Below, piece after piece: positions 16,195 through 35,198 of a stretch of DNA of 64,000 bases. The stretch is from Microbacterium oleivorans (GTDB lineage Bacteria; Actinomycetota; Actinomycetes; Actinomycetales; Microbacteriaceae): NCBI RefSeq assembly GCF_013389665.1, contig NZ_CP058316.1:434001-498000 (forward strand), written 5' to 3'. The notes below the pieces were generated by a model that was given only the letters and a program-made list of their open reading frames with translations, ran no database searches and was not told the origin of the DNA. Every line of letters starts with the position of its first letter. The stretch's first letter is position 1. Both the position numbers and the translations under genes were made by a program.

Positions 16195-16200
16195 CGCCCC

Positions 16201-16210
16201 AGCATAGGCT
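16201..16210. promoter_or_regulatory. Overlapping divergent -10 boxes of rsmI and the mannosyltransferase
   Basis: The 10-bp AGCATAGGCT reads TAGGCT on the plus strand (16205-16210) and TATGCT on the minus strand (16206-16201). Each is exactly 6 nt from its start codon (GTG 16217 and GTG 16194), and the two share the central TA. Confidence 0.6.
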
Positions 16211-16216
16211 GGCGGC

Positions 16217-17844: not shown

Positions 17845-18765
17845 GTGTTCCGCTACTCCCCGCCCGATGACGCGCAGCGCACGGGCTTCGCGATGGTCGC
17901 CGACCGTTTCGCCCTCCTCGTCGACGCCGCCGTGGGCGACGAGCTCGCCACCGGCCTGTGGAATGCCATGACGGCGCCGGATGCCGCCTTCGAGGACGTC
18001 CTCTCACTCATCGCCGCCGTCGGAATCGGCCGTCTGCCCGACTTCGCCCTCGTCGAGCTCGTGGACGCCGCGTCGAGCTCGGTGTCCGTCGCCGTGCGCG
18101 GCACCGCGACGATCGATCTGCACGGTCCGCAGCGCAGCAGCTACGCCGGCAGCGGTGTCGGCACCTGGGTCGAGGGGTCCGCGCAGCACGTCGCCGGGAT
18201 CTCGCTCGGGCTGGCCGGCGTCCTCTCCTCCGCCGTCCTCCTCCCTCTCGGACGCGGCGTCGCCCGCGCGAACGCGCTCGAGTGGGGCGTCGTCGTCTCG
18301 CCCGCGCCCGCCGTCCCCGCCGCTGCCACCGCACGCTCCGTCGCGGACGACGTGGACGACGTGGACGACAGCACGGTCCTCGGGTCACGGCGCCCCGGGG
18401 CGAGCCTGCCGGTGCCGCAGGCACCGCACGCCCGCCGGTACGTGCTGCGTCTGACCCCCGGTGGCGAGCACACGCTGGAACGCCCCGTCGTGCTGGGCCG
18501 CGCTCCCCGCACCGCGCAGCACCCCGGCGCTCGCACCGTCGCGGTGGCATCACCGCGCAAAGAGGTCTCGGGCGAGCACCTCGAGGCGCGGCTGGAGGGT
18601 GACGCGCTCGTGTTACGCGACCTCGGCTCCACCAACGGCACCGTCGTGCGCCAGCCGGACGGCGGTGAGGTGCTGCTGCGCGGCGGCGCGAGCGCCCGGG
18701 TGGCGCCGGGCACCGTCCTCGATCTCGGCGACGGGGTGACGGTCGTGTTCGAAGCGGTCCCGTGA
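17845..18765 (+). CDS. FHA-domain protein with acidic-x-TVL motif
   Basis: Cytoplasmic 306-residue protein. The first 150 residues form an unrecognised domain (VADRFALLVDAAVGDELATG...) without membrane helices. A linker then carries DDVDDSTVLGSRR with T177, a likely phospho-acceptor shared with other proteins of this island. The C-terminal FHA domain (about 195-304) keeps the phospho-threonine-binding residues: GR in VVLGRAPR, S and H in VSGEHLEARL, and N in RDLGSTNGTVV. FHA proteins read pThr marks made by Ser/Thr kinases; the kinase gene follows. The layout of an acidic Thr motif ahead of an FHA domain resembles GarA/OdhI self-binding switches, by analogy only. Confidence 0.88.
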   Translation: MFRYSPPDDAQRTGFAMVADRFALLVDAAVGDELATGLWNAMTAPDAAFEDVLSLIAAVGIGRLPDFALVELVDAASSSVSVAVRGTATIDLHGPQRSSYAGSGVGTWVEGSAQHVAGISLGLAGVLSSAVLLPLGRGVARANALEWGVVVSPAPAVPAAATARSVADDVDDVDDSTVLGSRRPGASLPVPQAPHARRYVLRLTPGGEHTLERPVVLGRAPRTAQHPGARTVAVASPRKEVSGEHLEARLEGDALVLRDLGSTNGTVVRQPDGGEVLLRGGASARVAPGTVLDLGDGVTVVFEAVP

Positions 18766-18831
18766 ACGGCCGTCAAGCGATTTCCCGGGGCTCGTCCGCT
18801 GTGTTAGAAAAATCTCACGGGAACAGGGTTT

Positions 18832-18857
18832 CGGAGGCGCAACGCACCGCGCCTCCG
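18832..18857 (+). promoter_or_regulatory. Stem-loop in the kinase leader
   Basis: Perfect 9-bp stem (CGGAGGCGC with its complement) and 8-nt loop, 21 bp before the kinase start, in a 113-bp gap. It could be a weak terminator for the FHA gene or a leader structure. Confidence 0.4.
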
Positions 18858-18878
18858 TCGACAGGGGGTGGATGACAC

Positions 18879-20024
18879 GTGGTGTCGAGACTTCCCTCCG
18901 CGCCACCCGGCCTCGCCGGCTTCACCTACGTCCGGCCCCTCGGCACCGGCGGGTTCGCCGATGTCTTCCTCTTCGAGCAGAATCTGCCGCGGCGTCCGGT
19001 CGCGGTGAAGGTGATGCTCGAAGACATCGTCGACGACAGTCTCCTGCGCATGTTCAACGCCGAGGCCGACGTCATGGCACGTCTGAGCGCGCACCCCTCG
19101 ATCCTCACGATCTACCAGGCATCCATCTCCGCCGACGGTCGCCCGTACATCGTGATGGAGTACTGCCCGACCTCGCTCACCAACCGGTATCGCCGTGAGG
19201 TCATCCCGGTGGCCGAGGTGCTGCAACTGGGCGTGAAGATCGCCTCCGCCCTCGAGACCGCCCACCGATCGGGGCTGCTCCACCGCGACATCAAGCCGTC
19301 GAACATCCTCATGACGACCTTCGGCGCCCCCGTCCTGGCCGACTTCGGCATCGCCTCGGCGATCACCGGCCGCGCCGACACCGACGAGGTGTTCGCGATG
19401 TCGGTGCCCTGGAGCGCGCCGGAGATCGTCGATGAACGCGTGTCGGGGTCCGTGGCCGCCGAGGTGTGGGGGCTGGGCGCGACGCTCTACTCGCTACTGG
19501 CCGGTCGGAGCCCCTTCGAACGGCCCGGCAGCGGTCGCAACAGCCGCGACCAATTGAAATCGCGCATCCGCAGAGCGGCCTACACCCCGATCGGGCGAGC
19601 GGACGTGCCCGCGCGCCTCGAGGAGGTGCTCGCCCGGTCGATGGCGCGTGACGCCTCCGCGCGTCAGGGGTCGGCGGCCGAGCTCGCGCACGAGCTGCAG
19701 CTCGTGCAGCACGAGATGGGCGTGCCGCACACCCCCATGGAGGTGGCCGTCGACGAATGGGCCGCAGCAGGGGCGGCGGTCGATTTCGCCGACGACCGAG
19801 CACGCGGCCCGGTGCGACCCTCGGTGTCGTACGAGTCGCGACGCCCCGCCCGCACTCCTCGCACGCTCGAGCGCCGTCCCGACGAGGGCACGGTCCTCGC
19901 CGGCGCCGAGCCTCGGCCGCGGCTGAGCACGACCGCCCGCATCGCCCTCCTCGCCGGCGGCGGTGCGCTCCTGGCCGCCGCCGGGGCGGTCACCACGCTC
20001 GTCATCGTCGGCGGGGGTCTGTGA
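18879..20024 (+). CDS. Hanks-type Ser/Thr protein kinase with C-terminal membrane helix
   Basis: Protein kinase, 381 residues, that should phosphorylate Thr/Ser on proteins of this island. All key elements are present: glycine loop LGTGGFADVFLF, ATP lysine K44 (AVKVM), catalytic loop HRDIKPSN (135-142, D137), DFG (155-157) and the APE-like SAPEIVDE. The catalytic domain ends near 275. A linker with DEGTVLAG (T338) precedes a single C-terminal membrane helix (about 352-378) ending almost at the C terminus, so there is no external sensor domain, unlike PknB with its PASTA repeats. The GTG start at 18879 has AGGGGG 12 nt upstream. The next gene overlaps its stop (GTGA). Confidence 0.93.
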   Translation: MVSRLPSAPPGLAGFTYVRPLGTGGFADVFLFEQNLPRRPVAVKVMLEDIVDDSLLRMFNAEADVMARLSAHPSILTIYQASISADGRPYIVMEYCPTSLTNRYRREVIPVAEVLQLGVKIASALETAHRSGLLHRDIKPSNILMTTFGAPVLADFGIASAITGRADTDEVFAMSVPWSAPEIVDERVSGSVAAEVWGLGATLYSLLAGRSPFERPGSGRNSRDQLKSRIRRAAYTPIGRADVPARLEEVLARSMARDASARQGSAAELAHELQLVQHEMGVPHTPMEVAVDEWAAAGAAVDFADDRARGPVRPSVSYESRRPARTPRTLERRPDEGTVLAGAEPRPRLSTTARIALLAGGGALLAAAGAVTTLVIVGGGL

Positions 20025-23000
20025 GGATGGCGCGACGCAGCGCCGCGCGTCCCCGCCTGCGCCGGAGCACCTGGATCGGCGCCGGTGCGGTGACCGCGGC
20101 GGTCGCGGTCATCACGACGCTGGCGGTCGTATGGCCCGGCTACGACGCCCAGCAGACGCCTCCCGAGAATCCCGCCGTCTGGGCTCTGCAGAACGGTGTC
20201 GGCAGCGGCTACGCCCGCGTCAATCTCGAACTGGGCGAGATCGACACGGTCAAGCAGGTCGACAACGGCAGCGCGCTCGCCCAGACCGGCGACCGGTTGT
20301 TCGTCTACAGCGACGGCGGCTCGAAGTACTCCGACGTCGACCTGGGACGCCCGGTCGATCTGACGGAGGATGCCGAGGACGCGTTCGCGCCGACGCCGCC
20401 GGGCACGACCGACATCGCCGCGTCCGGTGATCACCTCGTGTACCGCACCGACGCCGGCACGGTGTTCGGTGCGAGCCTGTCCGGTGGCGGTGAGGCGGTG
20501 CCGATCGACCCGTACGCCGACGTCGAGGTCGGCGAGGATGAGGACCGACCGCGATTCGTCGCCACCGCGGTGGCCGTCGATCCCGAGGGCACCGTCTACG
20601 CGTATTCCGCGCCCGAGGGGCGTGTCGTGCGTGCCGACGCGGGCACCGGCCGCATCCTCGGCGACGACGAGACCCCCGAGGCCCCCGAGACCGCCCGGCT
20701 CACCGCCGTCGACGGACGATGGGTGCTTCTCGACGACGCCTCGGGGCGGGTGTGGATCCAGGGCCGGGACGCGGCGATCGATACGGGGCTCGCCCCCGGG
20801 GCCCGGGTGCAGGATGCCGCGGCGGCCGGCGCCTGGGCCTATATCGCCGACGGCGACGGACTCGTGCGCATCGGCCTGGCCGACGGAGCGACCGACCGCA
20901 TCGTCGACCGGCCCGGCGCCGGCGTCCCCGCCACTCCCGCGGTGCTCGGTGAGACCGTGCATGCCGCCTGGCTCGCCGACGGCGAGTCGTCGGGATCGCT
21001 GTGGTCGAGCGCCGACCCGGACGAGATCGGCACCCTCGACTACGCCGGAGCCGACATCGGCGAGAACGTCGACCCCGCCTTCGTCGGGAACGGCACGCGG
21101 CTGGCGCTGAACGAGCGGCGGTCGGGCTGGGTCTGGTCCATCCCCGACGGCGAGCTGATCGCCTCCTCGCAGCAGTGGAACCTCGAGCGTCAGACGGAGG
21201 TCGAGCAGCAGGACGATGCGATGTCCGAACGTGTCGTCGACCCCAAGCCGCCGGTCGCCGTCGATGACGCCTTCGGCGTGCGGGCGGGCTCGGTCGCATT
21301 GCTGCCCGTGCTGCTGAACGACCACGATCCCAACGAAGACGTCCTCAGCATCGACCCCGGGTCGCTCGAGAACCTCGACCCGGACTTCGGCACCGCCTCG
21401 ATCACCGGGGCCCAGCAGCAGCTCGCCGTGGCCGTCTCTCCCGAGGCCTCGGGAACGGCGACCCTGCGCTACCGCGTGACCGATGGGACGACAGTCGACG
21501 GACTGCTGTCCGAGGCCGCGACCGTGACGATCAGCGTCGTACCCGACGAGCAGAACACGCCGCCGGTGTGGTGCGGGGTGGAGGACTGTCTGGCCACCTG
21601 GCCGTCGCTGAGCGTCGCGCCCGGCGGCACGGTGACCGCGGACCTCCTCGACGGCTGGGTCGACCCCGAGGGCGATCCGGTGTTCCTGGCGGGCGCGACG
21701 AACGACACCGCGGTCGGCACCGTCACCACCTCGCCCGAGGGGACCCTGACCTACCAGCATCCCGACCCGAACGCGACAGACGCGCTCGCCGTCTCGATCG
21801 GGGTCACCGTCTCGGACGCGCGCGGTGCGACCGTCACGCAACCGCTGTCGATCGCGGTCACTCCCACCCCGGAGCTGGTCGCCGAATCGTTCGCGGTCAC
21901 CGGCGTCGTCGGCGAGCCGATCGACATCTCGGTGGCCCCGTACGTCACCGGCGCCGCCGGTCCCGTCGCGCTCACCGGGGTGGTCGCCCTCGACGAGGCG
22001 CAGTCGACGGCCACCGCGAATCCCGCAGCGCTCAGCCTCGCCGTCACGGCGAACACCCCCGGGTCGTACCTCGTGCAGTACAGCGTCCGCGACGCGCTCA
22101 CCGAGGCCACCGCTCTGGTGCGGGTCACCATGATCGCGCCGGAATCGGCGACGATCACGACCCCGCCGCTCACCGCCTTCGTGCGCCCCGACGAGGACGC
22201 CACGATCGACGTCGCCTCGGCGGTGGCCAATCCCGCCGGACTCGTGCTGCTGCTCAGCGACATCCGCCCCGAGAGCGACCCGTTCGCCTCGCTCGGCGTC
22301 GACCTCGTCGGCCAGAGTCTGCTGCGCGTGAGCGGCACGACCGACACCGGCGAGCCCGGTCGCCTCGGCGTGGTGCGCTACACCGTCTCGGACGGCACCG
22401 GCAGCGACGCCGCCACCGCGACCGGCGAGCTGACGGTGGTCCTGCTGCCCACCGCGACCGCGGAGCCTCCCATCGCCGTCGACGACGCGGTCACCGTCCG
22501 GGCCGGCACCCAGATCGACATCCCCGTGCTCGATAACGACACCGCGCCCTCGGGGGCCCTCATCGCGATCGACCCGTCGTCGATCGTCGACGAGACCGGT
22601 GGCGGGCTCGCCTTCGCCACGAGCCGCGTCGTGCGCTATCTCGCGCCCGAGGCGGCGGGAACCTACGCACTGACCTACACCGTCTTCCGGCTCGGGTTCC
22701 CCGAGGTGACCGACACCGCGCGGGTGACCGTGACGGTGGTCGGCGACGAATCGAACCAGGCTCCCCTGCCGCGCACGCTCGTCGGCCGCGTGCTCAGCGG
22801 CCAGTCGGTGAGCATCCCGCTCGACGGCTACGCGGTCGACCCCGACGGCGACCCGGTCGTCCTCGACCGCATCGTCGAACAGCCCGAGCAGGGCTCGGCC
22901 ACGATCTCGGCCGACGGGTCGGCGATCGTGTACACCAGTCCCGACGGCTTCAGCGGTCAGACCCGGTTCCGCTACGCCGTACGCGACCCCAGCGGCGCGA

Positions 23001-25991
23001 CCGGCACCGCCGATGTGCGCGTGGGCGTCATCGACACGCAGACCGATCCGAGTCCGGTCACCTACAGCGATTACCTCCAGGTGCAGGTCGGTGCCGACAG
23101 CACCGTCGTCGTGCGGCCCGCCGAGAACGACATCGACCCCGCGGGCAGCGACCTCGAACTCGTCGAGGTGCGGCCGAACGCGCCGGAGGGCTCAGCCGAG
23201 TTCGACAGTCTGCAGTCCCTCGTGTCGTCGGTCGACGAAGGCGTCGTGACGCTCCGCGGGGGCGAGGCGCTCGGCACGTTCTCGTACACGTACACCGTGC
23301 GCAACGACCGCGGCGACACCGCGATCGGGCTGATCGTCGTCAAGACCGTGCGCGAGCCCGTGCCCGACTATCCGGTGGTGCGCGACACCGTGCTCACGCT
23401 CGAATCGCGCGAGGACTTCCCGAACGGCGTCGACGTCCTCGACGGGCAGGTCTCATGGAACACCGGTGAGGTCTCGGACCTGCGCTTGAGCCTGTGGGGC
23501 GACCCAGCCGGTGTCTCCGCACGCGGTTGGGAGCTCTCCGGCGACCTCCCCGAACGTTCGCGGGTGATCCCGTTCGAGGTCACCGGCGCGGCCTTCGACG
23601 GCACCGAGGTCACCTCGTACGGGTTCCTCCGCGTGCCGGGTGACGCCGATATCCGCCTCGCCCTGCGTGAGGGGTTCCCATCGCTCGACGTGCGCGAGAA
23701 CGAGACGGTGGACGTCGACATCGCGGATGCCGTGCGCGTGCCGCGCGGAGCGACCCTCGTGGTGGACGACGGTGGCGTGCGGCCGGGGGGGCGCGCGTGC
23801 CGCAGCCACGTGCTCGGTGGTCTCGGGCACGACCGTGCGCTACGCCGCCGGCGCGGGCGCGCCGTGGACCGACAGCTGCATCGTACCGGTCCGACTCGAC
23901 TCGCAGGAGACGCCGACCTTCCTCACGCTGCGTATCGCGATCGAGGCCGAGATCCCGCAGCCGAGCCTGCGCAGCGCCTCGCTGACGGTGGGCCCCGGCG
24001 CCACTCAGACCTACGACCTCGCCCAGATGGTGCAGTGGGCCGGCGCGGCGGACTGGGATGCCGTGCGCTACGACGGCGCCTACGGAGGCGACCAGTTCAC
24101 CGTGGCCGTCGCGAACGGGACCGTCACCGTCGTCGCCTCCGACACCGCTCGACCGGGACGCCAGGAGCCGGTCTCGATCACTCTCCCCAGTCATCCTGAC
24201 GCGCCGTCGGCGAATCTGCTGCTCACCGTCGGTCCGGCGCCGTCGACGCTGCCCAAGGGCGGCTCGGCCGTGCAGACCTGTTCGCAGTCCGGCGGCGCCA
24301 CCTCCTGCACCATCGAGGTCATCGGCGGCGCGGGCGAGATCAACCCCCTGCCCGGCACCCCGCTGCGCCTGGTCGGCGCGAGCGGCCCGGGCAACTGCGC
24401 CGGCGTGTCGTTCTCGCGGGCCAGCGACACCGCCGTCCGGGCGACGTGGCAGAGCGACGCGCCGGGCGCCGCCGAGTGCACCGGCACCTTCACCGTGGAG
24501 GACGCGCAGGGCCGGGTGTCGAGCGGCGGGCGCAACGGCCAGGTCATCCTCGACCTCCAGGGTCTGCCGGCTGCACCCGGGCGTCTGGAGTGGACGGCCT
24601 ACACGGGAGAATCGATCAGCCTGCGGGTGACGTCCGACGGAGGCTCCTACCCGGCCGTCCAGGGCTATCGCATCACGGCCGGCGGCCGCGAGGTCGCGAC
24701 GTGCCCCGCCTCCGGGTCGTGCTCGCCCGTCTCGGCACCGGTGGGAGAGAAGATCACCTACGAGGCGCGGGCGTACAGCTCGGTCGGGGAGTCCCGCTCC
24801 GCGGTGCGCGCCCAAGCATGGGCCTACCGCGCACCCGCCCAGCCCGGCGGCTCGACCGCCGAGCCGGTGCCGGCCGGGGACCGGGGCGGGAAGGCCACGG
24901 TGACGGTGACCGGACTGGACTCCACCACCGGGAGCGTGCGGCTGTCGGGAGGACGCCAGGGGGCCGACACGCGCCCCGTGGTCGGAGGAACCGCGACCTT
25001 CTCGAACTACGACATCGGCTCGAACACGGCGACCACGCTGACCGCGACCCCGCTGACGACGTTCGACCTTCCGCCGATCGCTGCGGGCTCGAGCGAGGGG
25101 CGATCCATCGAGGTGCGGGCGCACGGCGTCGGCGCACCGACCCTGACCCTGTCCGAGAGCAACACATCGACCTCGATCCGGGTCACCGCGTCCGTCGGCT
25201 CCAACGGCGACGGCACCCAGACCCGAATCGGCTTCAGCGAGCGCTCGGCGGAGGCGTGCGTGCCCGACGGCTCCGCCACGACCCGGCAGTTCGAGGCCCA
25301 GGCGTTCCGCGAGAAGACGATCTGGGCCTGCGCCGAGCACACCTACGACGGCGACTCGGGCTTCGGCATCGCCCGCGCCGAGATCTCGGCGCGACCCGTC
25401 GGCGAGATCGATGCGCCCGCGCGGATGACCTTCACGGTGTCGCCCCGACCCTCGGGCGGTCAGGCCGAGGGCTTCCGCTACGACGCCGGCTCACTGAGCG
25501 AGCCGGGGCGGCCGCCCTTCGAGGACGCGCGACTGCGGATCTACCTCAACGGCGAGCCGCGCGACGCGTTCGCTCCCCGGTACAACGCACCCGACGACGA
25601 ATGGACGGCACGCTGGTGCGATTCGTTCCTCGGGACCGACGGCGCCTGCTCCGACGCCGCCCGCATCGTCGCGGCCGGTGGCAGCGCCGACTACCCGATC
25701 TCGGTCTCCACCGACAACCTCCCGAGGTGCCGCTCGAACCAGTCGGCTCCCGAGTGGGCACCCGCCGGGTTCGGTTCGAATGTCGTCTCGGTCGAGCGGA
25801 CGGTGGACCAGGGCCCCCGCGGGCCGCGGAGCATCCAGTGGCGTGTGAGCTGGCGCGGTGCGCTCGGCGGGCTCGATCCGTTCACCGTCCGGGTCGACTG
25901 CGAACAGGTCGCTCCCTCGCCCACCCCGACCCCGACGCCCACGCCGACCGGCGGATCGAGCTCCGACGACGTCGACGCCGACTCCCCCTGA
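20021..25991 (+). pseudogene. Giant membrane-anchored Ig-like/cadherin-like repeat protein, frameshifted
   Basis: Two reading frames join into one gene. Frame one runs from GTG 20021 (overlapping the kinase stop as GTGA; ATG 20027 is possible) to about 23785; frame two continues from there to 25991. Removing one G from a run of seven (23785-23791) restores a protein of about 1989 residues; as written, the first frame ends at 24199 (1392 residues). Order: basic N terminus, one membrane helix (about 18-40), a beta-rich region of about 370 residues, then tandem bacterial Ig/cadherin-like domains with repeated signatures such as PPVAVDDAFGVRAG, PPIAVDDAVTVRAG and LDGYAVDPDGDPVV. After the shift come more Ig-like and FN3-like domains, several Cys, and a PTPTPTPT tail. 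Most of it should lie outside the cell. Whether the shift is a sequencing error, a mutation or phase variation is open. Confidence 0.85.
23785..23791 (+). repeat. G7 homopolymer at the frameshift
   Basis: Seven consecutive G at the exact point where the two halves of the giant protein change frame, near codon 1255. Six G would read VRPGGARAAATCSVVSG and stay open to 25991. Confidence 0.8.
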
Positions 25992-26022
25992 CCCCCGCCG
26001 CACGGCAACCCGAGAGGACATC

Positions 26023-26988
26023 ATGAGCATCACCCCGGAGCAGACCACCTGGTTCCAGGAGACGTTCTCGACGCTCGTCGACAACGTCGAGAAAGTGGTG
26101 CTCGGCAAGCGTCACGTCATCGAGCTGGCGTTCACGGCGATGGTGTCCGAGGGTCACCTGCTGCTGGAGGACTACCCGGGGACGGGCAAGACCTCGCTCG
26201 CGCGGGCGATGGGCCGGACCGTGCAGGGCACCAGCAGCCGCATCCAGTTCACCCCCGACCTCCTCCCGGGCGACGTCACGGGCATCACCGTCTACGACCA
26301 GAGCCGCGGCGAGTTCGAGTTCCATCAGGGCCCGATCTTCGCGAACGTCGTCCTGGCCGACGAGATCAACCGCGCCTCTCCCAAGACCCAGTCCGCCCTC
26401 CTGGAGGTCATGGAGGAGGGGCAGATCACGGTCGACGGCGTCACGCGACGCGTGGGGGTTCCCTTCCTCGTCGTGGCGACGCAGAACCCCGTCGAGCAGG
26501 CAGGCACCTATCGCCTCCCGGAGGCGCAGCTCGACCGGTTCTTGATGAAGACCACCCTCGGGTACCCCGACCACGCGGCGACGGTGCGCATCCTCGAAGG
26601 TGCCGCCGAGGCGCGGCACGAGGTCACGCCGGTGATCACCCCGCAGGGGGTGGTGAGCCTGGCCGACATCGCCCGCGGCGTCTATCTCGACGCGCTCGTG
26701 CTCGACTACATCGCGCGGCTCGTCGAGGCCACGCGCCTGGCGACCGAGGTGCGGCTCGGGGTGAGCGTGCGCGGCGCGATCGCGTTGACGAAGGCGGCGA
26801 AGACCTGGGCGGTCGCGCACGGGCGCAGTTACGTCACGCCCGACGACGTGAAGGCGCTCGCCGAGCCGGTGCTCGCGCACCGGCTCATCCTCGACCCCGA
26901 GGCGGAGTTCGACGGTGTCACACCGGGCGCCGTCATCGGACAGGTGCTCCTCGACACGGTGCCGCCGAGCCAGAGAGAGACCGTGTGA
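26023..26988 (+). CDS. MoxR-family AAA+ ATPase
   Basis: Chaperone-like AAA+ ATPase, 321 residues. Walker A is YPGTGKTS (51-58), Walker B LADEIN (111-116), sensor 1 ATQNP (152-156), and the arginine-finger region EAQLDRF (167-173). MoxR proteins remodel or activate partner proteins and are usually encoded next to DUF58 and transglutaminase-like membrane proteins, as here. ATG 26023 is preferred because GAGAGGA precedes it; it follows the giant protein gene by 31 bp and overlaps the DUF58 gene by GTGA. No VWA-domain protein, a frequent MoxR partner, is in this cluster. Confidence 0.95.
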   Translation: MSITPEQTTWFQETFSTLVDNVEKVVLGKRHVIELAFTAMVSEGHLLLEDYPGTGKTSLARAMGRTVQGTSSRIQFTPDLLPGDVTGITVYDQSRGEFEFHQGPIFANVVLADEINRASPKTQSALLEVMEEGQITVDGVTRRVGVPFLVVATQNPVEQAGTYRLPEAQLDRFLMKTTLGYPDHAATVRILEGAAEARHEVTPVITPQGVVSLADIARGVYLDALVLDYIARLVEATRLATEVRLGVSVRGAIALTKAAKTWAVAHGRSYVTPDDVKALAEPVLAHRLILDPEAEFDGVTPGAVIGQVLLDTVPPSQRETV

Positions 26989-28340
26989 GCTTCACCACGG
27001 AGTCCCGCCTGACCCGGACGTCGGTCGCCGACGGCACGGGTCTCGCCCGCACGCGGTACGGCACGACCGGACGCACCACCGTGCTCGCGGTGCGCGGCGT
27101 GCAGTCGTGGCGTCGGCTCAGGCGCACCGCATCCGCGACCGCCCGGTGGGTCGGCGAGACGGTGACGGTCGCCGGCTGGTTGATGGTCGTCACCGCGGCG
27201 GCCGGGCTCGTCGCGGGTCTCGGCTGGGGCATCGTCGAGCTGGCCGCGGCGGGCGTCGCGGCCGCGGTGCTGCTCGTGCTCTCGATCCCGTTCCTGTTCA
27301 GCGCGCGCGCCTACGAGGTGGATCTGCGCCTCGAACACGACCGGGTCGTGGCGGGCTCCCCCGTCGAGGGGAGGCTCGTGGTGACCAACGTCGGCAGCGC
27401 TCCGGCCCTTCCCGGCCGGATCGACGTCCCCGTCGGCGACGGCATCGTCGATGTGCACGTCCCCCTGCTCCGGCACGGACACCAGCACACCGAACAGGTC
27501 GTCGTCCCCACGCACCGCCGCGGCGTCATCACCGTCGGCCCCGCGCGCACGGTCCGCGGTGATCCCCTCGGCATCCTCAAACGCGAGGGCACGTGGGACG
27601 ACGTCCATACGCTCTACGTCCACCCGGTGACGACGACGCTGCGGAGCACGACCACCGGGTTCATCCGCGACCTCGAGGGCAGCGCATCCCGCTCGATCGT
27701 CGATGCGGACTTCTCCTTCCACGCCATCCGCCCCTACGTGCCCGGCGACTCGCAGCGCCAGATCCACTGGAAGTCGACCGCCAAGACCGGCACCCTCATG
27801 GTGCGCCAGTACGAGGAGACCCGGCGGAGCCGGATGGTGATCGCACTCGCGCTCGGCGACGACGAGCACGCCTCGGACGAGGAGTTCGAGCTCGCGGTCA
27901 GCGCCGTGGCATCCCTCGGCATCCGCGGCATCCGCGACGGACGCGACGTCGACGTCGTCGTCGGCGGCGACGTGCCGGAGTTCGCGCGGCGTCGGGTGCG
28001 GACCATCCGCGAGCTGACGACCATCACCGCCCGGACGCTCCTCGACGACCTGGCCGGTGTCGATCGCAGCGAGCACGTCAGCCCGCTCCGCGATGCGGCG
28101 TCGGTCGCCGCCGAGAGCCACCCCGACGTCTCCATCGCGTTCCTCGTGTGCGGCTCGACGCTCACACCGGCGCAGCTGCAGTCCGCGGCCCTCGCTTTTC
28201 CAGCGGACGTCGGCGTGATCGCCGTGGTCTGCTCCCCCGAGACGGAACCCGGATTCCGGCGTCTGGGGTCGATGTCGGTGCTCTCCATCGGCCTGCTCGA
28301 CGACCTGCGTCAGCTGCTGGCCCGGGCGGCGCAGTCGTGA
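26985..28340 (+). CDS. DUF58 membrane protein
   Basis: 451-residue protein. Two adjacent membrane helices (about 58-108) are followed by a cytoplasmic beta domain and the DUF58 core with the hallmark RPYVPGDSQRQIHWKSTAK and LMVRQYEETRRSRMVIA, where a VWA-like fold begins. DUF58 proteins accompany MoxR ATPases and are thought to be their client or adaptor; the biochemical role is not known. The start overlaps the moxR stop (GTGA, 26985-26988) and the stop overlaps the next start in the same way, implying fixed stoichiometry. Confidence 0.93.
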   Translation: MSFTTESRLTRTSVADGTGLARTRYGTTGRTTVLAVRGVQSWRRLRRTASATARWVGETVTVAGWLMVVTAAAGLVAGLGWGIVELAAAGVAAAVLLVLSIPFLFSARAYEVDLRLEHDRVVAGSPVEGRLVVTNVGSAPALPGRIDVPVGDGIVDVHVPLLRHGHQHTEQVVVPTHRRGVITVGPARTVRGDPLGILKREGTWDDVHTLYVHPVTTTLRSTTTGFIRDLEGSASRSIVDADFSFHAIRPYVPGDSQRQIHWKSTAKTGTLMVRQYEETRRSRMVIALALGDDEHASDEEFELAVSAVASLGIRGIRDGRDVDVVVGGDVPEFARRRVRTIRELTTITARTLLDDLAGVDRSEHVSPLRDAASVAAESHPDVSIAFLVCGSTLTPAQLQSAALAFPADVGVIAVVCSPETEPGFRRLGSMSVLSIGLLDDLRQLLARAAQS

Positions 28341-30844
28341 GCGCCCCGGGTCGACGCGATCTCCGCGCCCGTCGCGCCCCCCGGGTTCGTCTGCGCTTCT
28401 TCGTCGCGCAGGCGGCACTGCTCGATCTCGTCATCGCCGTCGGTGCGGTCGCGACCTGGCCGATCTACCGCAGTGCGGCGTTCGCGGTGATGGTGATCGT
28501 GGCATCGGTCGCCGCGCACGCCATCGCTGCGGCCGGACTCCGCTGGCGATGGAACGCCTGGTGGCTCGCCGGCGCGACCATCGCCGCCTATCTCGTGCTG
28601 GGTCTCCCCCTCGCCGCGCCCGCATCGCTGAGCTCCCCCGCGCAGGCGCTGTCGGGCGCGGTCGCCGTTCTCAGGGCTCCGGTCACGGGCTGGAAGGACC
28701 TGCTCACCCTCGAGCTTCCCCTCGGCAGCTACCAGGCCACGCTCGCCCCTGCGCTCGTCGTCTTCCTGGCCGTCCCGGTCATCGCGCTGTCGGTGGCCTG
28801 GCGCGGCGGACGGTTCTGGCCGCTCGCGGTGGGCACGGCGCTGCTGCCGACGGTGTTCGGGATCTTCTTCGGCTCGGCCGCCCTGCTGTCGCCGTTCGTC
28901 GTCGGCCCGGTGACGATCCCGCGCGAAGCACTCGTAGGACTGGCGGCCGTCGTCGCGGCGCTCGGTGCCATCGTGTGGCGGACGATCTCCGACCGACGAC
29001 GCGCGATCGCCACGGCTGTCGCGTCGACGGGCGTACGCGCCACGGGCCGTCCTCTCCGGGGCCTGGCCGGCCGGATCGTGACCGCGGGCGCGATGGTCAC
29101 CGCGGCGGTCGTCGCAGCCGCGCTGGCTGCTCCGTGGGCGCTCGCAGGTCAGCCCCGCGAGGTGCTGCGCGCCGGGATCGATCCGCGGCTCGAGATCGCC
29201 GCGGAGCTCAGCCCGCTGGCCCAGTACCGCGCGTCTTTCGCCGACGAGACCTACGCGCGGACGCTGTTCCGTGTCGACGCGCCGACGGCGGCCGACCGGG
29301 TGCGGCTCGCGACCCTCCCGTTCTACGACGGCCGGGTCGCGCGTGTCGTCGACCCCGGCGCCGGTGCCGACGACCCGCGCACCGCGTTCGCTCGTGTGCC
29401 GTCCTCGCTGCCCTCGCCCGCCGGCGCCCCGTCGCGCACGGTACGCGTCACCATCGACACCTACGACGACGTGTGGATGCCGACCGTGGGGGCAGTCACC
29501 GCCCTCGCCTTCGACGGTGGGGATGCCGCGAGCCTCGCCGACCGGTTCTACTACAACGCCGAGACCCGCGCGGGCGTGCAGTTGGGCGAGCCGGGGCTCC
29601 GAGCGGGTGCGACCTATAGCCAGGACGCCGTCGTCGACGACGGTGCTCCTTCCCTGGCCGACCTCGATCCCGCGCGCGGCGGACCCGTGCTCGGCGGCGA
29701 CGTGGTTCCCGAGAGCCTGGTGACGTGGGTCGAGGCGCAGGAGGCGAGCGGCGGAGGCGCGGGCCTGGCCACGCTCATCGAACGCCTGCGCGCCCGCGGC
29801 TTCCTCAGCCATGCCCTGACGGTCGACGAGGCGAGCCCGCCCGCCTGGGCGGACGACCTGGGCGACTACGCCTTCCAGCCCAGTCGTGCCGGTCACTCGA
29901 CCGACCGCATCGGACGGCTCTTCAGCGACCTGCTCGCCCGCGAGGGCGAGATCGGCGGCGACGACGACGCCGCCCTGGTGTCGGCGGTCGGCGACGACGA
30001 GCAGTTCGCCGTCGCCGGCATGATGCTCGCCGACCAGCTGGGCTTCGACGCGCGTGTCGTCGTCGGCACGCGCCTGACCTCGGACGAGCCGACGCTCTCG
30101 ACGTGCGACGACGGCGTATGCACTGCGGGAGATCTCGCCGCCTGGATCGAGGTCCGCGGGGACGGGTCGACCTGGGTGCCGGTGGATGTCACGCCGCAGC
30201 ACGCGGTCTCCCCGTCACCCGACACGCAGCAGCGGCAGGACCCGAAGATCCCCACCGAGGTCCGCCAGGAGCAGGCCGACACCGTGCTTCCCGCCGACGC
30301 CGACCCGAGCGACGGCGGCCGGCGCCCCGACGACGACACCCGGGCCGCTCCCGACCTCACGGCGCTATGGACGGCGTTGCGCGTCGGCGGCGTGTCGCTC
30401 CTGACGGTCGTGCTGCTCTTCGGCCCGTTCGCGCTCATCGTGCTGGTCAAACTGTTCCGGCGACGCGCGCGACGCCGCGCCGACGATCCTGTCGAGCGCC
30501 TCACGGGCGGCTGGCAGGAGTTCGTCGACGCCGCCGTCGATCACGGCCACCCCGTCCCGCGGTCGCAGACCCGCCGCGAACTGGCCGCGCATTACGGCGG
30601 AACGGCGGGGGCGACCGAGCTGGCGACCCTGGCCGACCGTTCGGTCTTCGACGCCACCGCGCCCGATCCCTCCGACGGCGACCGGTTCTGGGCCGTCGTC
30701 GACGCCGAGCGGTCGCGGCTCGACGACGGCATCGGTTGGTGGGCGCGGCTGCGCGCACGTGTCTCGGTGCGCTCGCTCCTGCGCCGCAGCGGCCGGGCAT
30801 CGCCGACTCGGCGACCGATGCCGCGCCGACGGCGGGATCGGTAG
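28337..30844 (+). CDS. Transglutaminase-fold membrane protein lacking the catalytic Cys and His
   Basis: 835-residue membrane protein of the DUF3488/transglutaminase type found beside MoxR and DUF58. The N-terminal part has about six helices (to about residue 270), then an external region, a transglutaminase-like core (about 545-625), a helix near 680-702 and a cytoplasmic tail of about 130 residues resembling DUF4129. In active relatives the core reads GxCEQFA ... HAW.E ... D.TP. Here it reads VGDDEQFA (D554 in place of Cys), LAAWIEV (A601 in place of His) and VPVDVTP (D617 kept). It is therefore probably not a transglutaminase or protease but a structural or binding version of the fold. GTGA overlap with the DUF58 gene. 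Confidence 0.88.
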   Translation: MSAPGRRDLRARRAPRVRLRFFVAQAALLDLVIAVGAVATWPIYRSAAFAVMVIVASVAAHAIAAAGLRWRWNAWWLAGATIAAYLVLGLPLAAPASLSSPAQALSGAVAVLRAPVTGWKDLLTLELPLGSYQATLAPALVVFLAVPVIALSVAWRGGRFWPLAVGTALLPTVFGIFFGSAALLSPFVVGPVTIPREALVGLAAVVAALGAIVWRTISDRRRAIATAVASTGVRATGRPLRGLAGRIVTAGAMVTAAVVAAALAAPWALAGQPREVLRAGIDPRLEIAAELSPLAQYRASFADETYARTLFRVDAPTAADRVRLATLPFYDGRVARVVDPGAGADDPRTAFARVPSSLPSPAGAPSRTVRVTIDTYDDVWMPTVGAVTALAFDGGDAASLADRFYYNAETRAGVQLGEPGLRAGATYSQDAVVDDGAPSLADLDPARGGPVLGGDVVPESLVTWVEAQEASGGGAGLATLIERLRARGFLSHALTVDEASPPAWADDLGDYAFQPSRAGHSTDRIGRLFSDLLAREGEIGGDDDAALVSAVGDDEQFAVAGMMLADQLGFDARVVVGTRLTSDEPTLSTCDDGVCTAGDLAAWIEVRGDGSTWVPVDVTPQHAVSPSPDTQQRQDPKIPTEVRQEQADTVLPADADPSDGGRRPDDDTRAAPDLTALWTALRVGGVSLLTVVLLFGPFALIVLVKLFRRRARRRADDPVERLTGGWQEFVDAAVDHGHPVPRSQTRRELAAHYGGTAGATELATLADRSVFDATAPDPSDGDRFWAVVDAERSRLDDGIGWWARLRARVSVRSLLRRSGRASPTRRPMPRRRRDR

Positions 30845-30900
30845 GGTTGCACCCGGTACGGGCGCACGCGGTGATCACGGACGAAGAGGTAGGAGAACGG

Positions 30901-32232
30901 GTGACGGCACACATCTGGCCGCAGCAGGACGCCGTGGCGACCATCGCCCTCGGCGGCTCGGGCGGGATCGACCCCGGCGCGCTCGCCGCGGCGAGCCTCG
31001 TCCAGCTGCTCGTCGGCATCGGCGTCTACGTCTGGCTCGCACTCGCGCTCACGGCGGTGTTCCGCAAGGTCGGGGTGGCTCCCTGGAAGGCATGGGTCCC
31101 GGTCCTCAACGGCTGGGAGCTGTTCGTCCTCGGCGGGATGCGCGGCTGGTGGGCCGCGGTGCTCACCGGCGGCGCCATCCTCGTGGCCATCGTCGGCACC
31201 ATCGTCGGCGGACTGTTCGCGGGAGCCGCCGTCACCGCCGGCTTCGGCGGTGACGCCGCCAGCGCGGCGGGTGCCCTGGCCGCCGCCGCGGTCGTGCCCG
31301 CGCTCATCTGGTTGGCGTTCCTCGTCTTCGCCGTCGTCGTGCAGGTACGACTGCTGCGCGCGCTCTGCCGCGGCTTCGGTGTGGGCACCGCGTACGTCGT
31401 GCTCGGCGTCATCCTGTTCCCCGTGTGGGCGAGCGTGATCGGCTGGGGCTCGGCGCGATGGCTCGGTCGCCCCACCGAGCAGGCCTCCGGGCCGTTCGGC
31501 GAGGGTCCCACCCCGGGTGCGTCGACAGCAGCACCGGTCGACACCGCCACGCGCGCATCGAGTGCGTCGAGTGCGTCGAGCTCATCGAGTGCATCGAGCG
31601 GAGCATTCGCTCCCCCGACCGCCTTCGCCGCCGTCCCGGCAGCTCCCGCTGACCTCGCCGCCGCCGATCAGCCAGCCGACCCCGGACCGGTGACGGCGAG
31701 CCCCTGGGCTCCGCCGCCGCCCCCCGCGGAGACCGTCGCGGAACCCGTGGCTCCGCTTCCGTGGACGGCGCCGCCCGCATCGCCCGCCCCGGCATCGCCC
31801 GCTCCTGCTCCGGCTGCGCCCGCCCCGGCACCCGTCGCTGCCCGCTCCGCGCCCGCAGGACTCGAGGAGGACGCCCAGGACGTCGACGAGCGCACCGTGC
31901 TGGCCGCCCGCCGCGCACCGCAGGCGAGCCTCCGGCTCCCCGCCGGGACGTCCGTGGTCCTGACCTCCGACACCGCCGTCCTCGGCCGCAATCCGGTCGC
32001 CACCGCTGATGCACCGGATGCGCAGCTCATCCCTGTCGACGACACCACGCGCACCGTGTCGAAGACGCATGCGCTGCTGCGGCGTACCTCGGAGGGCTGG
32101 ATGATCAGCGACCTCGCCTCGACCAACGGCGTCTTCGTCGGCGAGGACGAAGCCGAGGTGTCGGGCCCGACCCGGGTCACCGGCGCGTTCCATCTCGGTG
32201 ATGCCGAGCTGCACCTCTCCGAGGACGGATGA
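30901..32232 (+). CDS. DUF5684-like membrane protein with C-terminal FHA domain
   Basis: 443-residue protein. The N-terminal half has four predicted membrane helices with VAPWKAWVPVLNGWELFVLGG, like DUF5684 proteins. A long Ala/Pro/Ser-rich linker (about 200-325) includes a run of TCGAG-type 9-bp repeats (31556-31603) encoding Ser-Ala-Ser. Near its end is DVDERTVLAARR with T332, the island's shared motif. The FHA domain (about 345-440) keeps GR (VLGRNP), S and H (VSKTHALL) and N (SDLASTNGVFV). It would anchor phospho-Thr recognition at the membrane. GTG 30901 is chosen over GTG 30871 because AGGAG lies 5 nt upstream. It overlaps the phosphatase start by ATGA. Confidence 0.88.
   Translation: MTAHIWPQQDAVATIALGGSGGIDPGALAAASLVQLLVGIGVYVWLALALTAVFRKVGVAPWKAWVPVLNGWELFVLGGMRGWWAAVLTGGAILVAIVGTIVGGLFAGAAVTAGFGGDAASAAGALAAAAVVPALIWLAFLVFAVVVQVRLLRALCRGFGVGTAYVVLGVILFPVWASVIGWGSARWLGRPTEQASGPFGEGPTPGASTAAPVDTATRASSASSASSSSSASSGAFAPPTAFAAVPAAPADLAAADQPADPGPVTASPWAPPPPPAETVAEPVAPLPWTAPPASPAPASPAPAPAAPAPAPVAARSAPAGLEEDAQDVDERTVLAARRAPQASLRLPAGTSVVLTSDTAVLGRNPVATADAPDAQLIPVDDTTRTVSKTHALLRRTSEGWMISDLASTNGVFVGEDEAEVSGPTRVTGAFHLGDAELHLSEDG
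31556..31603 (+). repeat. Short degenerate 9-bp repeats in the linker
   Basis: Repeats of about nine bases around GCGTCGAGT encode alternating Ser-Ala-Ser in the linker of the FHA membrane protein. They may change copy number by slippage. Confidence 0.5.
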
Positions 32233-33083
32233 CCGACACCACGACCCCGGTCGACATCCATGTCACCAGCGGCAGCCGCACCGACCCCGGTCGGCGGCGC
32301 CGCGTGAACGAGGATGCTCTTCTCGCCGAGTACCCCGTCTTCCTCGTGGCCGACGGCATGGGCGGCCACGAGGCGGGCGACCGGGCATCGGCTGCCGTGA
32401 TCGACGTCTTCCGCGTTTTCGCGGGACGAGACGATCTGCGCCCTGAAGAGGTCTCCGACGCGGTCGAGCGTGCGCATTCGGCCGTCGCGGACATCGCGGC
32501 CGGCACCGCTCGCGGCGCCGGCTCCACGCTCTCGGGTGTCGTCGCCGTGCACCAGGACGGCACGCGGCGCTGGCTCATCGTGAACGTCGGCGATTCGCGT
32601 GTCTACCGGTTGCTCGCCGAACGGCTCGAGCAGCTGACGATCGATCACTCGGTGGCCCAGGAGCTCGTCGACGCGGGCCGCCTGGCCCGCGAGGAGATGG
32701 CGACATTCGAGGGCCGCAACGTCATCACACGCGCCATCGGCGGCGAGCGCAGCCGTGCCGATTACTGGCTCATCCCGATCGTGACGGGCGAGCGCATCGT
32801 CGTGTGCTCCGACGGCCTCACCGGTGAGATCTCGGACGAGGCGATCCGCGCGGGGCTCATGATGGGCGGTTCGCCGGCTGGGACCGCGGAGTCGCTCGTC
32901 GCCCAGGCGCTCGCGCACGGCGGCCGCGACAACATCAGCGCCATCGTGCTCGACGTCATCGCGGGAGGGATCAGCCCGCGGCTCGAGGACACGACCGGCG
33001 GGTTCATGAACAGCGAGTCGGTGACGGCGACCGTCGAGGTCGCGACCGCGCGCTCGCGTCGACATCGGAGTGCCGGTGGCTGA
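32229..33083 (+). CDS. PP2C-type Ser/Thr phosphatase
   Basis: Metal-dependent protein phosphatase, 284 residues, expected to reverse the island's kinase. The conserved motifs are RVNEDALL, VADGMGGHEAGDRAS, GSTLSGVV, VNVGDSRVYRL, DHSVAQELV, CSDGLTGEI and GGRDNISAIVL, giving all metal-binding aspartates. It lacks membrane helices and so is cytoplasmic. It overlaps the FHA gene in front (ATGA) and the pseudokinase behind, so phosphatase, reader and pseudokinase are made together. The usual actinobacterial PstP is larger and membrane-bound; this is a separate, island-specific enzyme. Confidence 0.95.
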   Translation: MTDTTTPVDIHVTSGSRTDPGRRRRVNEDALLAEYPVFLVADGMGGHEAGDRASAAVIDVFRVFAGRDDLRPEEVSDAVERAHSAVADIAAGTARGAGSTLSGVVAVHQDGTRRWLIVNVGDSRVYRLLAERLEQLTIDHSVAQELVDAGRLAREEMATFEGRNVITRAIGGERSRADYWLIPIVTGERIVVCSDGLTGEISDEAIRAGLMMGGSPAGTAESLVAQALAHGGRDNISAIVLDVIAGGISPRLEDTTGGFMNSESVTATVEVATARSRRHRSAGG

Positions 33084-34428
33084 GTTCCGCCGTCGTGCCC
33101 GTGACGCCGCCGGCGCCGCGCCCGACCTGCCGGGGCGGGGTGCCGACCGGCTGCTGTCGTCGAGCACGCGTGCCGACGTATGGCTCTTCCGCGATGACTC
33201 GGGCGGCCCGGACGTCGCCGTCAAGATCTACCGCGAGGTCCTCGACGATGCGCAACGCGAGGCGTTCACGACCGCGAGCGGACGCCTGCGAGCGGTCTCG
33301 GCGCACCCCGCCATCGCCACGGTCCACTCCGGCGGCTTCGCGGGCGACGGGCGGGCCTTCCTCATCCTCGAGCATTGCTCCGGGCCGGCACTGGCGCAGA
33401 CCATCGCGCGTCACCCCGCCAGCCTGGCCGACACCCTGCGTCTGCTCGTCCAGCTCGCGGGCGCGGTCGAGAGCGCCCACCGTGCCGGACTGGCACACGG
33501 TCGCGTTCGCGTCGAGAACGTCCTGACGACCGGGTACGGCTGGCCCGCGCTCGTGGGTTTCGACTCTGACGCTCTGCTGCGTCGCAATGCCGACACGGAT
33601 GCCGCGCCGGCCCGCGCCACGGACGTGCACGGCCTCGCCGTCGCGGCGACCGAGCTGCTGTCCGGACGTCCCATCGCCGAGTCCGGCGCCGAGTCGGGTG
33701 CCGCCGACGGGGCGGACGCCGTCCCAGCGGCCCTCGAACGTCTCGTCCTCGACGTGCTGGCTGCCTCAGCCGGTGGCGGCGGGCCCGCCGCAGCCGACTT
33801 CGCCGAGGAGCTGCAGCGGATCGAAGTGGACCTCCACCTCCCGCTGACGCATCTCGACGTTCGCGAACCCGGGGGCGGAGCGTCCGACACCGGCGAGCAG
33901 ACCGTCCTCTCCCTCCGCGGCGTCGGCCCCGCGTCGCCCGACACCGACGATTACACCGTCCTGTCCACCCGACACGCCCCCGCCACACCCGACACCGACG
34001 ACCACACCGTCCTGTCCACCCGACACGCCCCCGCCACACCCGACACCGACGACCACACCGTCCTGTCCACCCGCGGGAGCGGAGACGGCCCCCGGCCGTC
34101 CGCCGGTGGAGCCGTGCCCGGTCCCGGCGGACCCGATGAGACCGTCCTCGTCCGCCGCCGCGACGACGGCGTCGTCCGCGGGCGCAGAGGCACGGGTCGG
34201 CAGGCCGCGGTGCCCGAAGGAGGACCCGAGCGTTACCGGGTCCGCGACGCTCGCCCGATGCCGGAGGTCGTCCGCGAGCCGGTGGCGCCGCCGGCCGCGC
34301 GGACCGACGCTCCGACGCGACGCCGAACGCCCGGCCGTGGCGCGATCGTCGCCGTCGTCGGCGGCGGCATCCTCGTGCTCGGCGCAGCTCTGACCGCCAT
34401 AGTGATGCTCATCGGAGGGGGATCATGA
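33076..34428 (+). CDS. Pseudokinase with five TVL motifs and a C-terminal membrane helix
   Basis: Kinase-fold protein, 450 residues from GTG 33076 (GTG 33070 is also possible, but GGAG lies 5 nt before 33076). The ATP lysine is present (AVKIY, K50), but the catalytic loop HRDxKPxN is HGRVRVEN (141-148), with Arg in place of the catalytic Asp, and DFG is replaced by GFD (161-163). It should not transfer phosphate and may bind or scaffold. After the domain come five acidic-x-TVL motifs at T276, T294, T311, T328 and T356, three of them in 17-residue tandem repeats, then a basic linker and a membrane helix (about 420-446). The C-terminal layout copies that of the active kinase. ATGA overlap with the next gene. 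Confidence 0.88.
   Translation: MAEFRRRARDAAGAAPDLPGRGADRLLSSSTRADVWLFRDDSGGPDVAVKIYREVLDDAQREAFTTASGRLRAVSAHPAIATVHSGGFAGDGRAFLILEHCSGPALAQTIARHPASLADTLRLLVQLAGAVESAHRAGLAHGRVRVENVLTTGYGWPALVGFDSDALLRRNADTDAAPARATDVHGLAVAATELLSGRPIAESGAESGAADGADAVPAALERLVLDVLAASAGGGGPAAADFAEELQRIEVDLHLPLTHLDVREPGGGASDTGEQTVLSLRGVGPASPDTDDYTVLSTRHAPATPDTDDHTVLSTRHAPATPDTDDHTVLSTRGSGDGPRPSAGGAVPGPGGPDETVLVRRRDDGVVRGRRGTGRQAAVPEGGPERYRVRDARPMPEVVREPVAPPAARTDAPTRRRTPGRGAIVAVVGGGILVLGAALTAIVMLIGGGS
33955..34076 (+). repeat. 51-bp tandem repeats encoding the TVL motif
   Basis: Two identical 51-bp units (33955-34005, 34006-34056) and a 20-bp third start, coding for 17-residue units TVLSTRHAPATPDTDDH. A partly diverged unit precedes them. 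Identity at nucleotide level points to recent duplication. Confidence 0.85.
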
Positions 34429-35198
34429 CAGCCATCGACCAGGAGACAGGCGAGCACGACCGGGAGGACGCCGAGCCGGCGTTCGCCGAGACGGTCGCGG
34501 TGGAGTTCTGCGGCGAGTGGTTCCGCCCGGTCGCCGGCACGACGTACGCGATCGGTCGCGATGCCGACCTCGTCGTCGACACCAACCCGTACCTGCACCG
34601 CAGGCTCCTCGCGATCGATGCCGAGCACGGCCTGTGGTGGCTGTCGAACACCGGCCAGTCGATCTCGGTGAGCCTGGCGACCCCCGACGGCGCCTATCAG
34701 GCCGTCCTCGGCCCGGGGGCGCGGGTTCCGCTGGTCTTCCCCGCACTGGTCGTGATGTTCACGGCGGGCGCGTTCACCTACGAGCTCACCGTGCACACCG
34801 ACGGGTCGCGCTTCACGGTGCGCGACAGCATGCCGCGCCCGGTCGACGAGTACGTGGGAACCACGACGGTCGGCGCGATCGCCCTCACCTCCAGTCAGCG
34901 TCTGCTGCTCCTGGCGATGTGCGAGCCGATCCTCCGGGGCGGCATGGTGGGGTCCAGCCAGATCCCCACATCGGCGGCCGCGGCCGAGCGTCTCGGCTGG
35001 CCGCTGACCACCTTCAACCGCAAGCTCGACAACGTCTGCGACAAGCTCGATCGCGAGGGCGTGCGCGGTCTCCGCGGCGGCGTCGGCAAGCTCGCCACCA
35101 ACCGCCGGGCCCGACTGGTCGAGCATGCCGTCCTCTCGCGCCTGGTCACCGCTGCCGACCTCCCCCTGCTCGACGCCGTTCCGGGCGAACGGGGCTGA
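34425..35198 (+). CDS. FHA-like domain fused to a winged-helix-like domain
   Basis: 257-residue protein. The N-terminal part (about 25-130) looks like a diverged FHA domain, with YAIGRDADLVVD, YLHRRLLAID and WWLSNTGQSISVSL in the GR, H and N positions. The C-terminal part (about 150-245) has a winged-helix pattern: LTSSQRLLLLAM, then IPTSAAAAERLGWPLTTFNR and KLDNVCDKLDREGVRGLRGG. It is therefore likely a transcription regulator or nucleic-acid-binding protein that responds to phospho-Thr, in the spirit of EmbR but with reversed domain order. It is last in the overlapping series from the kinase and would be a natural output. No membrane helix. The function is not established. Confidence 0.75.
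   Translation: MTAIDQETGEHDREDAEPAFAETVAVEFCGEWFRPVAGTTYAIGRDADLVVDTNPYLHRRLLAIDAEHGLWWLSNTGQSISVSLATPDGAYQAVLGPGARVPLVFPALVVMFTAGAFTYELTVHTDGSRFTVRDSMPRPVDEYVGTTTVGAIALTSSQRLLLLAMCEPILRGGMVGSSQIPTSAAAAERLGWPLTTFNRKLDNVCDKLDREGVRGLRGGVGKLATNRRARLVEHAVLSRLVTAADLPLLDAVPGERG

Follow-up and report, generated by a model that had tools for sequence, protein, structure and literature searches.

A conserved acidic-x-Thr motif in FHA proteins, a kinase and tail-anchored arrays of Microbacteriaceae islands: a candidate phosphothreonine docking site

The recruitment of an FHA protein by the phosphorylated tail of a pseudokinase (MviN/FhaA) and the FHA-adjacent switch (GarA) are both already known. In mycobacteria, PknB phosphorylates the C-terminal tail of the membrane pseudokinase MviN and the FHA protein FhaA docks there (PMC12599244, PMC11898655), and GarA carries a kinase-target Thr, in the sequence ETTS, N-terminal to its FHA domain (PMC12321487). 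The PFNA operon of Bifidobacterium, which its description calls unique to bifidobacteria and reports as co-transcribed for B. longum only, encodes a kinase, an FN3 protein, MoxR, DUF58 and transglutaminase proteins and then PP2C and FHA proteins, and its kinase Pkb2 phosphorylates the MoxR of the same operon (PMC8430577). In type VI secretion, the PpkA/Fha/TssL system combines a kinase, a phosphatase and an FHA protein with phosphothreonine (pThr) on a membrane partner, at single Thr sites (PMC3953482). The bacterial pThr/FHA cases met in the literature involve one site or a few sites and one reader. The present work concerns a Thr motif in a gene island of Microbacterium oleivorans, within a stretch of 64,000 nucleotides (contig NZ_CP058316.1, positions 434,001 to 498,000 of the forward strand; the whole of this stretch is called the window below). 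The motif occurs there in two FHA proteins (FHA1 and the membrane protein FHAm), in a membrane kinase (KIN) and in a pseudokinase (PKIN) that carries it as an array. Sequence comparison with homologous islands indicates that the conserved core of the motif is acidic(-2)-x-Thr-x-hydrophobic(+2), mostly with Arg at +5, and it is fairly probable that the motif is a pThr docking site, such that the tail-anchored array would become a multivalent FHA docking strip once phosphorylated by the kinase.

Copies of the motif in the window and arrays in related islands

Homologous islands were collected from genomes using the transglutaminase-like membrane protein as the anchor. The 80 loci obtained, from which the window's own island is excluded, comprise 69 of type A, 29 of them from 20 other genera and 40 from the window's genus, and 11 of type B; for the Microbacterium islands, the stretch fetched reaches about 5.5 kb past the transglutaminase. 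The homologues named in similarity searches are mostly from Microbacterium. L and P numbers below are handles for loci and proteins, respectively.

A sequence-only reading of the window had listed eight copies of the strict motif, [DE]-x-T-V-L, and a six-frame scan of the 64 kb finds all eight where it had placed them, with the acid at -2 in eight of eight. The genes all lie on the + strand. FHA1 (306 aa, 17845..18765; Pfam FHA 6.1e-06) has DDSTVLGSRR directly before its FHA domain (T177, codon 18373); KIN, a Ser/Thr kinase with a C-terminal hydrophobic helix (18879..20024; Pfam Pkinase 8.5e-39, HRDIKPSN/DFG), has DEGTVLAG in its juxtamembrane segment (T338, codon 19890); FHAm, which consists of a DUF5684 membrane bundle, an unstructured linker and an FHA domain (30901..32232, translation from 30853; Pfam FHA 7.2e-07), has DERTVLAARR (T332, codon 31894); and PKIN (33070..34428), which consists of a pseudokinase, the motif array and a C-terminal hydrophobic helix, has five copies (Thr codons at 33901, 33955, 34006, 34057 and 34141). 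The placement of the copies in linkers, also proposed in that reading, agrees with AlphaFold models, in which the motif regions are predicted to be unstructured: the predicted local distance difference test score (pLDDT) is below 50 over residues 270-389 of PKIN (P0121), which form the array (33883..34242), and over residues 321-337 of FHAm. Since this FHAm segment is predicted to be disordered and precedes the first FHA strand at 342, the idea that its motif is an extra strand of the FHA fold is rejected.

The strict motif is seen 8 times in these four proteins (1,580 aa) against 0.10 expected, with four of four proteins hit, the background being 22 occurrences in 342,201 residues (0.64 per 10,000) of stop-to-stop open reading frames (ORFs) of the Ig, MoxR, DUF58 and transglutaminase genes of the 80 islands. 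The Poisson probability of at least four is 4e-6, which is optimistic because the motif was picked after being seen, and the figure of eight overstates independence because three of the five PKIN copies lie in a 51-bp tandem repeat. Four more TVL sites in island proteins (18712, 23387, 27078 and 30281) lack the acid at -2. DNA patterns that detect the TVL form of the motif only were also run genome-wide. The pattern [DE]-x-T-V-[LF]-x-x-R, with arginine restricted to CGN codons, matches 22 times, including 7 times in three of the four proteins, against 5 times when reversed; [DE][DE]xTVL matches 27 times, 20 of them outside the island and the type-B kinase. Among the other matches, 7 of 15 for the first pattern and 9 of 20 for the second were read; these are partly shared and amount to 13 stretches, which by eye lie in doubtful frames or within ordinary enzymes and look unrelated.

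Arrays of the motif are found repeatedly at the corresponding position of related islands. At least three copies of the strict array motif, [DE].T.[LIVMF]..R, are present in 38 of the 80 loci, in one ORF each and on the island strand; no ORF of the opposite strand, where there are 4,144, reaches this number. All of the 38 ORFs end in a hydrophobic stretch except that of L024, which could be a false match. Control motifs (counts for same/other strand) give 0/0 when Thr is replaced by Ser, when the motif is reversed and when a base replaces the acid, and 1/0 with an acid at +5; the counts for Ala (7/18), Gly (8/13), Val (1/17), Arg (2/24), Asp (1/6) and Pro (1/1) in place of Thr are at chance level. 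Under a looser rule (at least three copies of [DE].T.[LIVMF] and a C-terminal hydrophobic helix), 44 of the 69 type A islands have one array ORF each (20/29 in other genera, 24/40 in Microbacterium) with 3 to 17 motifs, and all 44 ORFs lie downstream of the transglutaminase, with none elsewhere on either strand; the controls yield 2 for Ser, 7 for Ala, 6 for Gly, 2 for Val and 0 for the reversed motif. With at least two looser motifs and a helix the count rises to 56 of 69. A kinase-like domain, scored as present above 60 phmmer bits, is detected in 5 of the 44 ORFs and in none of the other 39, and none of the 44 is itself an FHA protein. Beyond this set, 20 loci from a search of the order contain one such array (L182, family f10), together with an FHA protein that has three loose motifs (L184), and 18 and 15 loose motifs are present in the metagenome-assembled genomes L154 (Actinobacteria by its label) and L165 (Microbacteriaceae by its label), respectively.

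The pseudokinase of the window is thus one form of a wider family, an array fused to a dead kinase, and relatives carry the array on an intact kinase or alone. PKIN has HGR for HRD and GFD for DFG and so lacks the catalytic Asp residues, although the AlphaFold model has a kinase fold, whose best PDB matches are mycobacterial kinases (first an entry on PknA/PknB inhibition, second PknI, with 3otv of Rv3910 at rank 33). The closest 19 of 42 PKIN homologues have 4-8 motif copies with Arg at +5 and varying spacers, in the forms T-V-L, T-R-L, T-A-L, T-T-I, T-L-L and T-Q-L; 16 of these 19 have a dead kinase domain, with HGR or HRR in place of HRD and GFD in place of DFG, and the other three (P0137-P0139) have an intact one. 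In Microbacterium, L049, L050 and L051, and L054 by score, have an intact kinase with an array at the PKIN position, and others, such as L052, L064, L066, L068 and L070, have only a short array with a terminal hydrophobic helix. The pseudokinase had been read as a relay; comparison with relatives shows instead that the array is retained more constantly, the kinase domain being optional.

Tandem DNA duplication without signalling function would account for the 51-bp repeat of the window, whose copies are 82-88% identical. It is nevertheless very improbable as an explanation of the arrays, since by eye the spacers differ among relatives while the motif core stays, Thr occupies 85 of 89 anchored positions, and most arrays have no detected kinase domain.

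Conservation beside FHA domains and the preference for Thr

If the motif is functional beside FHA domains, then its Thr should be retained where most of the linker is not, and this holds for FHAm as it does for the PKIN tails. A recognisable FHA GR is present in 119 of 120 listed FHAm homologues (of 241 found), and [DE].T.[LIVMF] occurs 50 to 20 residues before it in 117 of the 119, the window included, whereas 200 shuffles of the same segment average 5.4 and never exceed 12. In 48 of the 120 chosen for diversity and aligned, T332 is invariant and is the sole invariant column between G183 and G362, a span that includes the unstructured linker of about 150 residues; only two prolines and some positions around 344-349 come close to invariance there. 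The residues G-R, S-x-x-H and N-G, which we take to form the pThr pocket of FHA domains, are present by eye in FHA1, and G362, R363, S387, H390, N409 and G410 of FHAm are invariant in the 48; no solved relative of the FHAm FHA segment is found by sequence at E 0.01. At the level of islands, an FHAm-type ORF lies downstream of the transglutaminase in 64 of the 69 type A islands and has the motif in 58; of the six without it, L017, L018 and L019 keep the Thr with the acid shifted, L068 keeps the Thr with Ala at +2, L039 has nothing of the motif left, and L016 is discussed below. L020 carries its FHAm upstream of the kinase, and the motif there reads LDHTVFVSR. The genome of the window holds ten FHA matches in all; outside the island, DHTVVVARR occurs in a second membrane FHA paralogue (L008/L200).

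The other two single copies are more narrowly distributed. For FHA1, all 28 closest homologues, window included, carry [DE].T.[LIVMF] in the 63-residue stretch preceding the FHA domain, as do 19 of the next 23 by regular expression, at least one of these (P0196) being non-equivalent; in other genera, FHA1 is recognised upstream of the kinase in 8 of 29 islands. The juxtamembrane motif of KIN is conserved within Microbacterium, where 35 of 39 islands have it (L049-L087; L088, which this count omits, shows none by eye). Outside the genus it is not conserved, as 4 of 29 islands match by regular expression, L035 at a different place. The kinase motif has two main forms, DEGT[VI]LAG and DEDT[ED][IF]SAP, each prevailing in one clade, and the forms of FHA1 run from DDSTVLGSRR to DDHTQLG and DDRTELS, from which it follows that Val at +1 is free while Thr and the hydrophobic residue at +2 are kept. 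Over 387 distinct 17-mers, with Thr fixed by the search, the consensus is D-[DE]-x-T-[VRAL]-[LVI]-[SVA]-x-R-R. TVL had been proposed as the code; strict TVL is rare in relatives, which carry T-[VRALITQ]-[LVIFM], usually with Arg at +5, and is rejected. An FhaA-like protein of L002 ends in DATRMYDTR, which resembles the T-R-x form.

Type B loci show a different arrangement, with no array downstream in 11 of 11 and with scattered motifs in cis in their FHA proteins and kinases. In L044, the FHA domain of the first FHA protein is preceded in cis by four acidic-x-T motifs. The window's own genome contains a second, type-B island copy (L027, 1638006-1658005), with motifs scattered in an FHA protein and a kinase and no array gene by the criterion used; the type B kinase of the genome has EDQTVLRP.

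The position before the FHA domain resembles that of the GarA ETTS site (PMC12321487), and a looser pre-FHA motif occurs in some other FHA families of the order (L170, with WDSTVLSSS, L180, L183 and L184; it is not seen in L185, L187 and L188), so the motifs could be GarA/OdhI-type intramolecular switches only, each FHA protein being shut by its own phosphorylated motif and the array being an unrelated repeat protein. This is a decidedly unlikely account, given that the same core recurs 3-17 times in the proteins encoded directly downstream in 44 of the 69 islands.

The residue used at the central position bears on another alternative, in which the motif is the preferred autophosphorylation or substrate sequence of the kinase and the array acts as a sink or decoy for phosphate, buffering the kinase without being read by any FHA domain. 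The conserved -2, +2 and +5 positions do resemble kinase specificity, and motif copy number varies freely; however, Thr lies directly before the FHA domain in the FHAm homologues counted above, and Ser, which Ser/Thr kinases also use, is just 1 of 89 residues at the anchored position [DE][DE].X.[LIVMF]..R of the 19 tails collected by homology (T 85, V 2, A 1, S 1). The sink is accordingly judged unlikely, though less so than the switch-only account. In the array ORFs of 56 islands and the window protein the counts are T 179 and S 2 of 190, against backgrounds of 6.1% and 6.2%, a result that is partly circular because these ORFs were selected for Thr motifs. FHA domains are described as pThr-specific (PMC3953482).

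Further information comes from the agreement between the FHAm motif and the array of the same island. Positions +1..+4 of FHAm are closer to the array of their own island than to those of other islands (p = 0.002 when each of 16 genera contributes one island, and p = 0.00005 over all 51 pairs), as is +2 alone with one per genus (p = 0.0007), and nothing is seen at -3..-1. Compared with the three nearest relatives, the own array wins in 33 of 47 differing islands (sign p = 0.008, Wilcoxon p = 0.03). This co-variation supports a matched code and is not proof of one.

A proposed docking array and the points that weigh against it

We infer a scheme in which the membrane kinase KIN would phosphorylate the motif in its own juxtamembrane segment and beside the FHA domains, its chief target being the disordered, tail-anchored array at the inner membrane face. 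Once phosphorylated, this array would gather FHAm and FHA1 at the membrane as a multivalent strip; the single copy beside each FHA domain would compete in cis and switch its protein off, in the manner of GarA/OdhI; PP2C would reset the phosphorylated motif; and the clustering would presumably control the MoxR/DUF58/transglutaminase/surface-protein module of the island. Basic residues flanking a membrane helix mark its cytoplasmic side (the positive-inside rule). The array is placed in the cytoplasm because such residues flank the N-terminal side of the PKIN tail-anchor helix (34342..34416, residues 423-447 of P0121 in the AlphaFold model).

Several observations weigh against this scheme. FHAm is not recognised downstream of the transglutaminase in 5 of the 69 islands, Ala replaces the Thr in the FHAm of L016 although that island has an array, no array with at least two motifs is found in 13 of 69 (two of which, L059 and L078, are cut by a contig end), and no PP2C is seen in the fetched stretch of 26 of the 40 Microbacterium islands. 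An FHA-pattern ORF is present in 43 of 44 array islands and in 23 of 25 non-array islands, so that co-occurrence of FHA genes with arrays says little. According to one paper, FHA domains can bind phosphoserine as well (PMC8430577), which would weaken the argument from Thr preference, and their ligand choice is usually read at +3 (PMC3953482), while the motif is conserved at -2, +2 and +5, so that it may reflect the kinase and not an FHA reader. The FHAm-array match at +2 or at +2,+3 alone is no better than that with the nearest relatives, and shared ancestry therefore explains part of the likeness. The juxtamembrane phosphosites of StkP do not match its predicted substrate motif (PMC12077195), which calls for caution in inferring kinase choice from sequence.

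Overall, the interpretation given in the sequence-only reading is partly supported. A broader reading, which is offered tentatively as being close to evenly balanced, is that Microbacteriaceae possess a dedicated stand-alone phospho-scaffold: a disordered, tail-anchored strip with up to about 18 pThr sites that crowds FHA proteins at the inner membrane, comparable to the LAT-type receptor scaffolds of animal cells. The pseudokinase of the window would then be an intermediate, between a kinase with an array and, elsewhere, the array alone. If this is correct, multivalency in bacterial phospho-signalling could be put to a direct test in a conserved gene whose product consists almost entirely of candidate reader sites and a membrane anchor and which adjoins the genes of its probable writer and readers. 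The pseudokinase would also gain a function as the anchor for its own tail, and there would be a handle on the role of PFNA-type operons. A literature search that covered few subscription journals found no description of a stand-alone multi-site array gene.

The island and its relation to described systems

The genes discussed above belong to a single + strand island at 17.8-35.2 kb of the window. FHA1 and KIN, in which no outer sensor domain is seen, are followed by an Ig/cadherin-like protein (20039..25991), a MoxR AAA+ ATPase (26020..26988; Pfam AAA_3 3.8e-61), a DUF58 protein (26985..28340; Pfam 6.9e-11), the transglutaminase-like membrane protein (28337..30844; Pfam 2.7e-07), FHAm, a PP2C phosphatase (32229..33083; Pfam PP2C_2 3.6e-08), PKIN, and FHAH (34425..35198), which by eye is FHA-like with a C-terminal DNA-binding-like region. 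The reading frame of the Ig/cadherin-like gene is broken near 23785 and split between two frames beside a run of G (23780-23815), where relatives have one long ORF; the break is either a sequencing slip or a real phase-variable tract. FHAH matches no NCBIfam family, its pThr pocket residues look lost by eye, and it adjoins the array gene in several Microbacterium islands too.

The window has the PFNA-type order of kinase, Ig protein, MoxR, DUF58 and transglutaminase, and it shares the PFNA gene set, with PP2C and FHA genes at the 3' end. It differs in that FHA precedes PP2C and an array gene follows, and in that the second protein matches Big_9/cadherin domains in Pfam and no FN3. In the Bifidobacterium-type loci L170, L171, L174 and L175, whose assignment to bifidobacteria is an inference from gene order, the gene downstream of PP2C encodes a different protein without an array, so that the seventh Bifidobacterium PFNA gene is not supported as an array gene. 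In L171, L174 and L175 that gene encodes a repeat-like protein of the type PxxLAKxxYENPEFGANVAxHPRAYPGLLRWI, which may be the "hypothetical" seventh PFNA gene, and by eye a similar stretch lies within an FHA protein of L026. The WDSTVLSSS of L170 belongs to its PFNA FHA protein (16051-16771).

In its order, acid-Thr-hydrophobic-basic, the array motif resembles the motif printed for PknA, though in another register (PMC7164672). PpkA/Fha/TssL shares with the window island the set of kinase, phosphatase and FHA protein, but its output machine is unrelated and its Thr sites are single where here there is an array. With GarA/OdhI, FHAm shares a conserved candidate kinase-target Thr N-terminal to the FHA domain; it differs in having D-E-R-T-V-L and not ETTS, in being a membrane protein, in being accompanied by arrays in trans, and in scoring 24 bits against the OdhI cut-off of 200, and the genome has its own GarA-like protein (L001), with SSDTTQTF. 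Like PKIN, whose kinase fold lacks the catalytic Asp residues, MviN is a membrane pseudokinase with a tail, but the recruitment tail of MviN is on a flippase, whereas the present motif is repeated in an array that is borne on a tail anchor, in most cases with no kinase domain detected, and encoded in a different operon.

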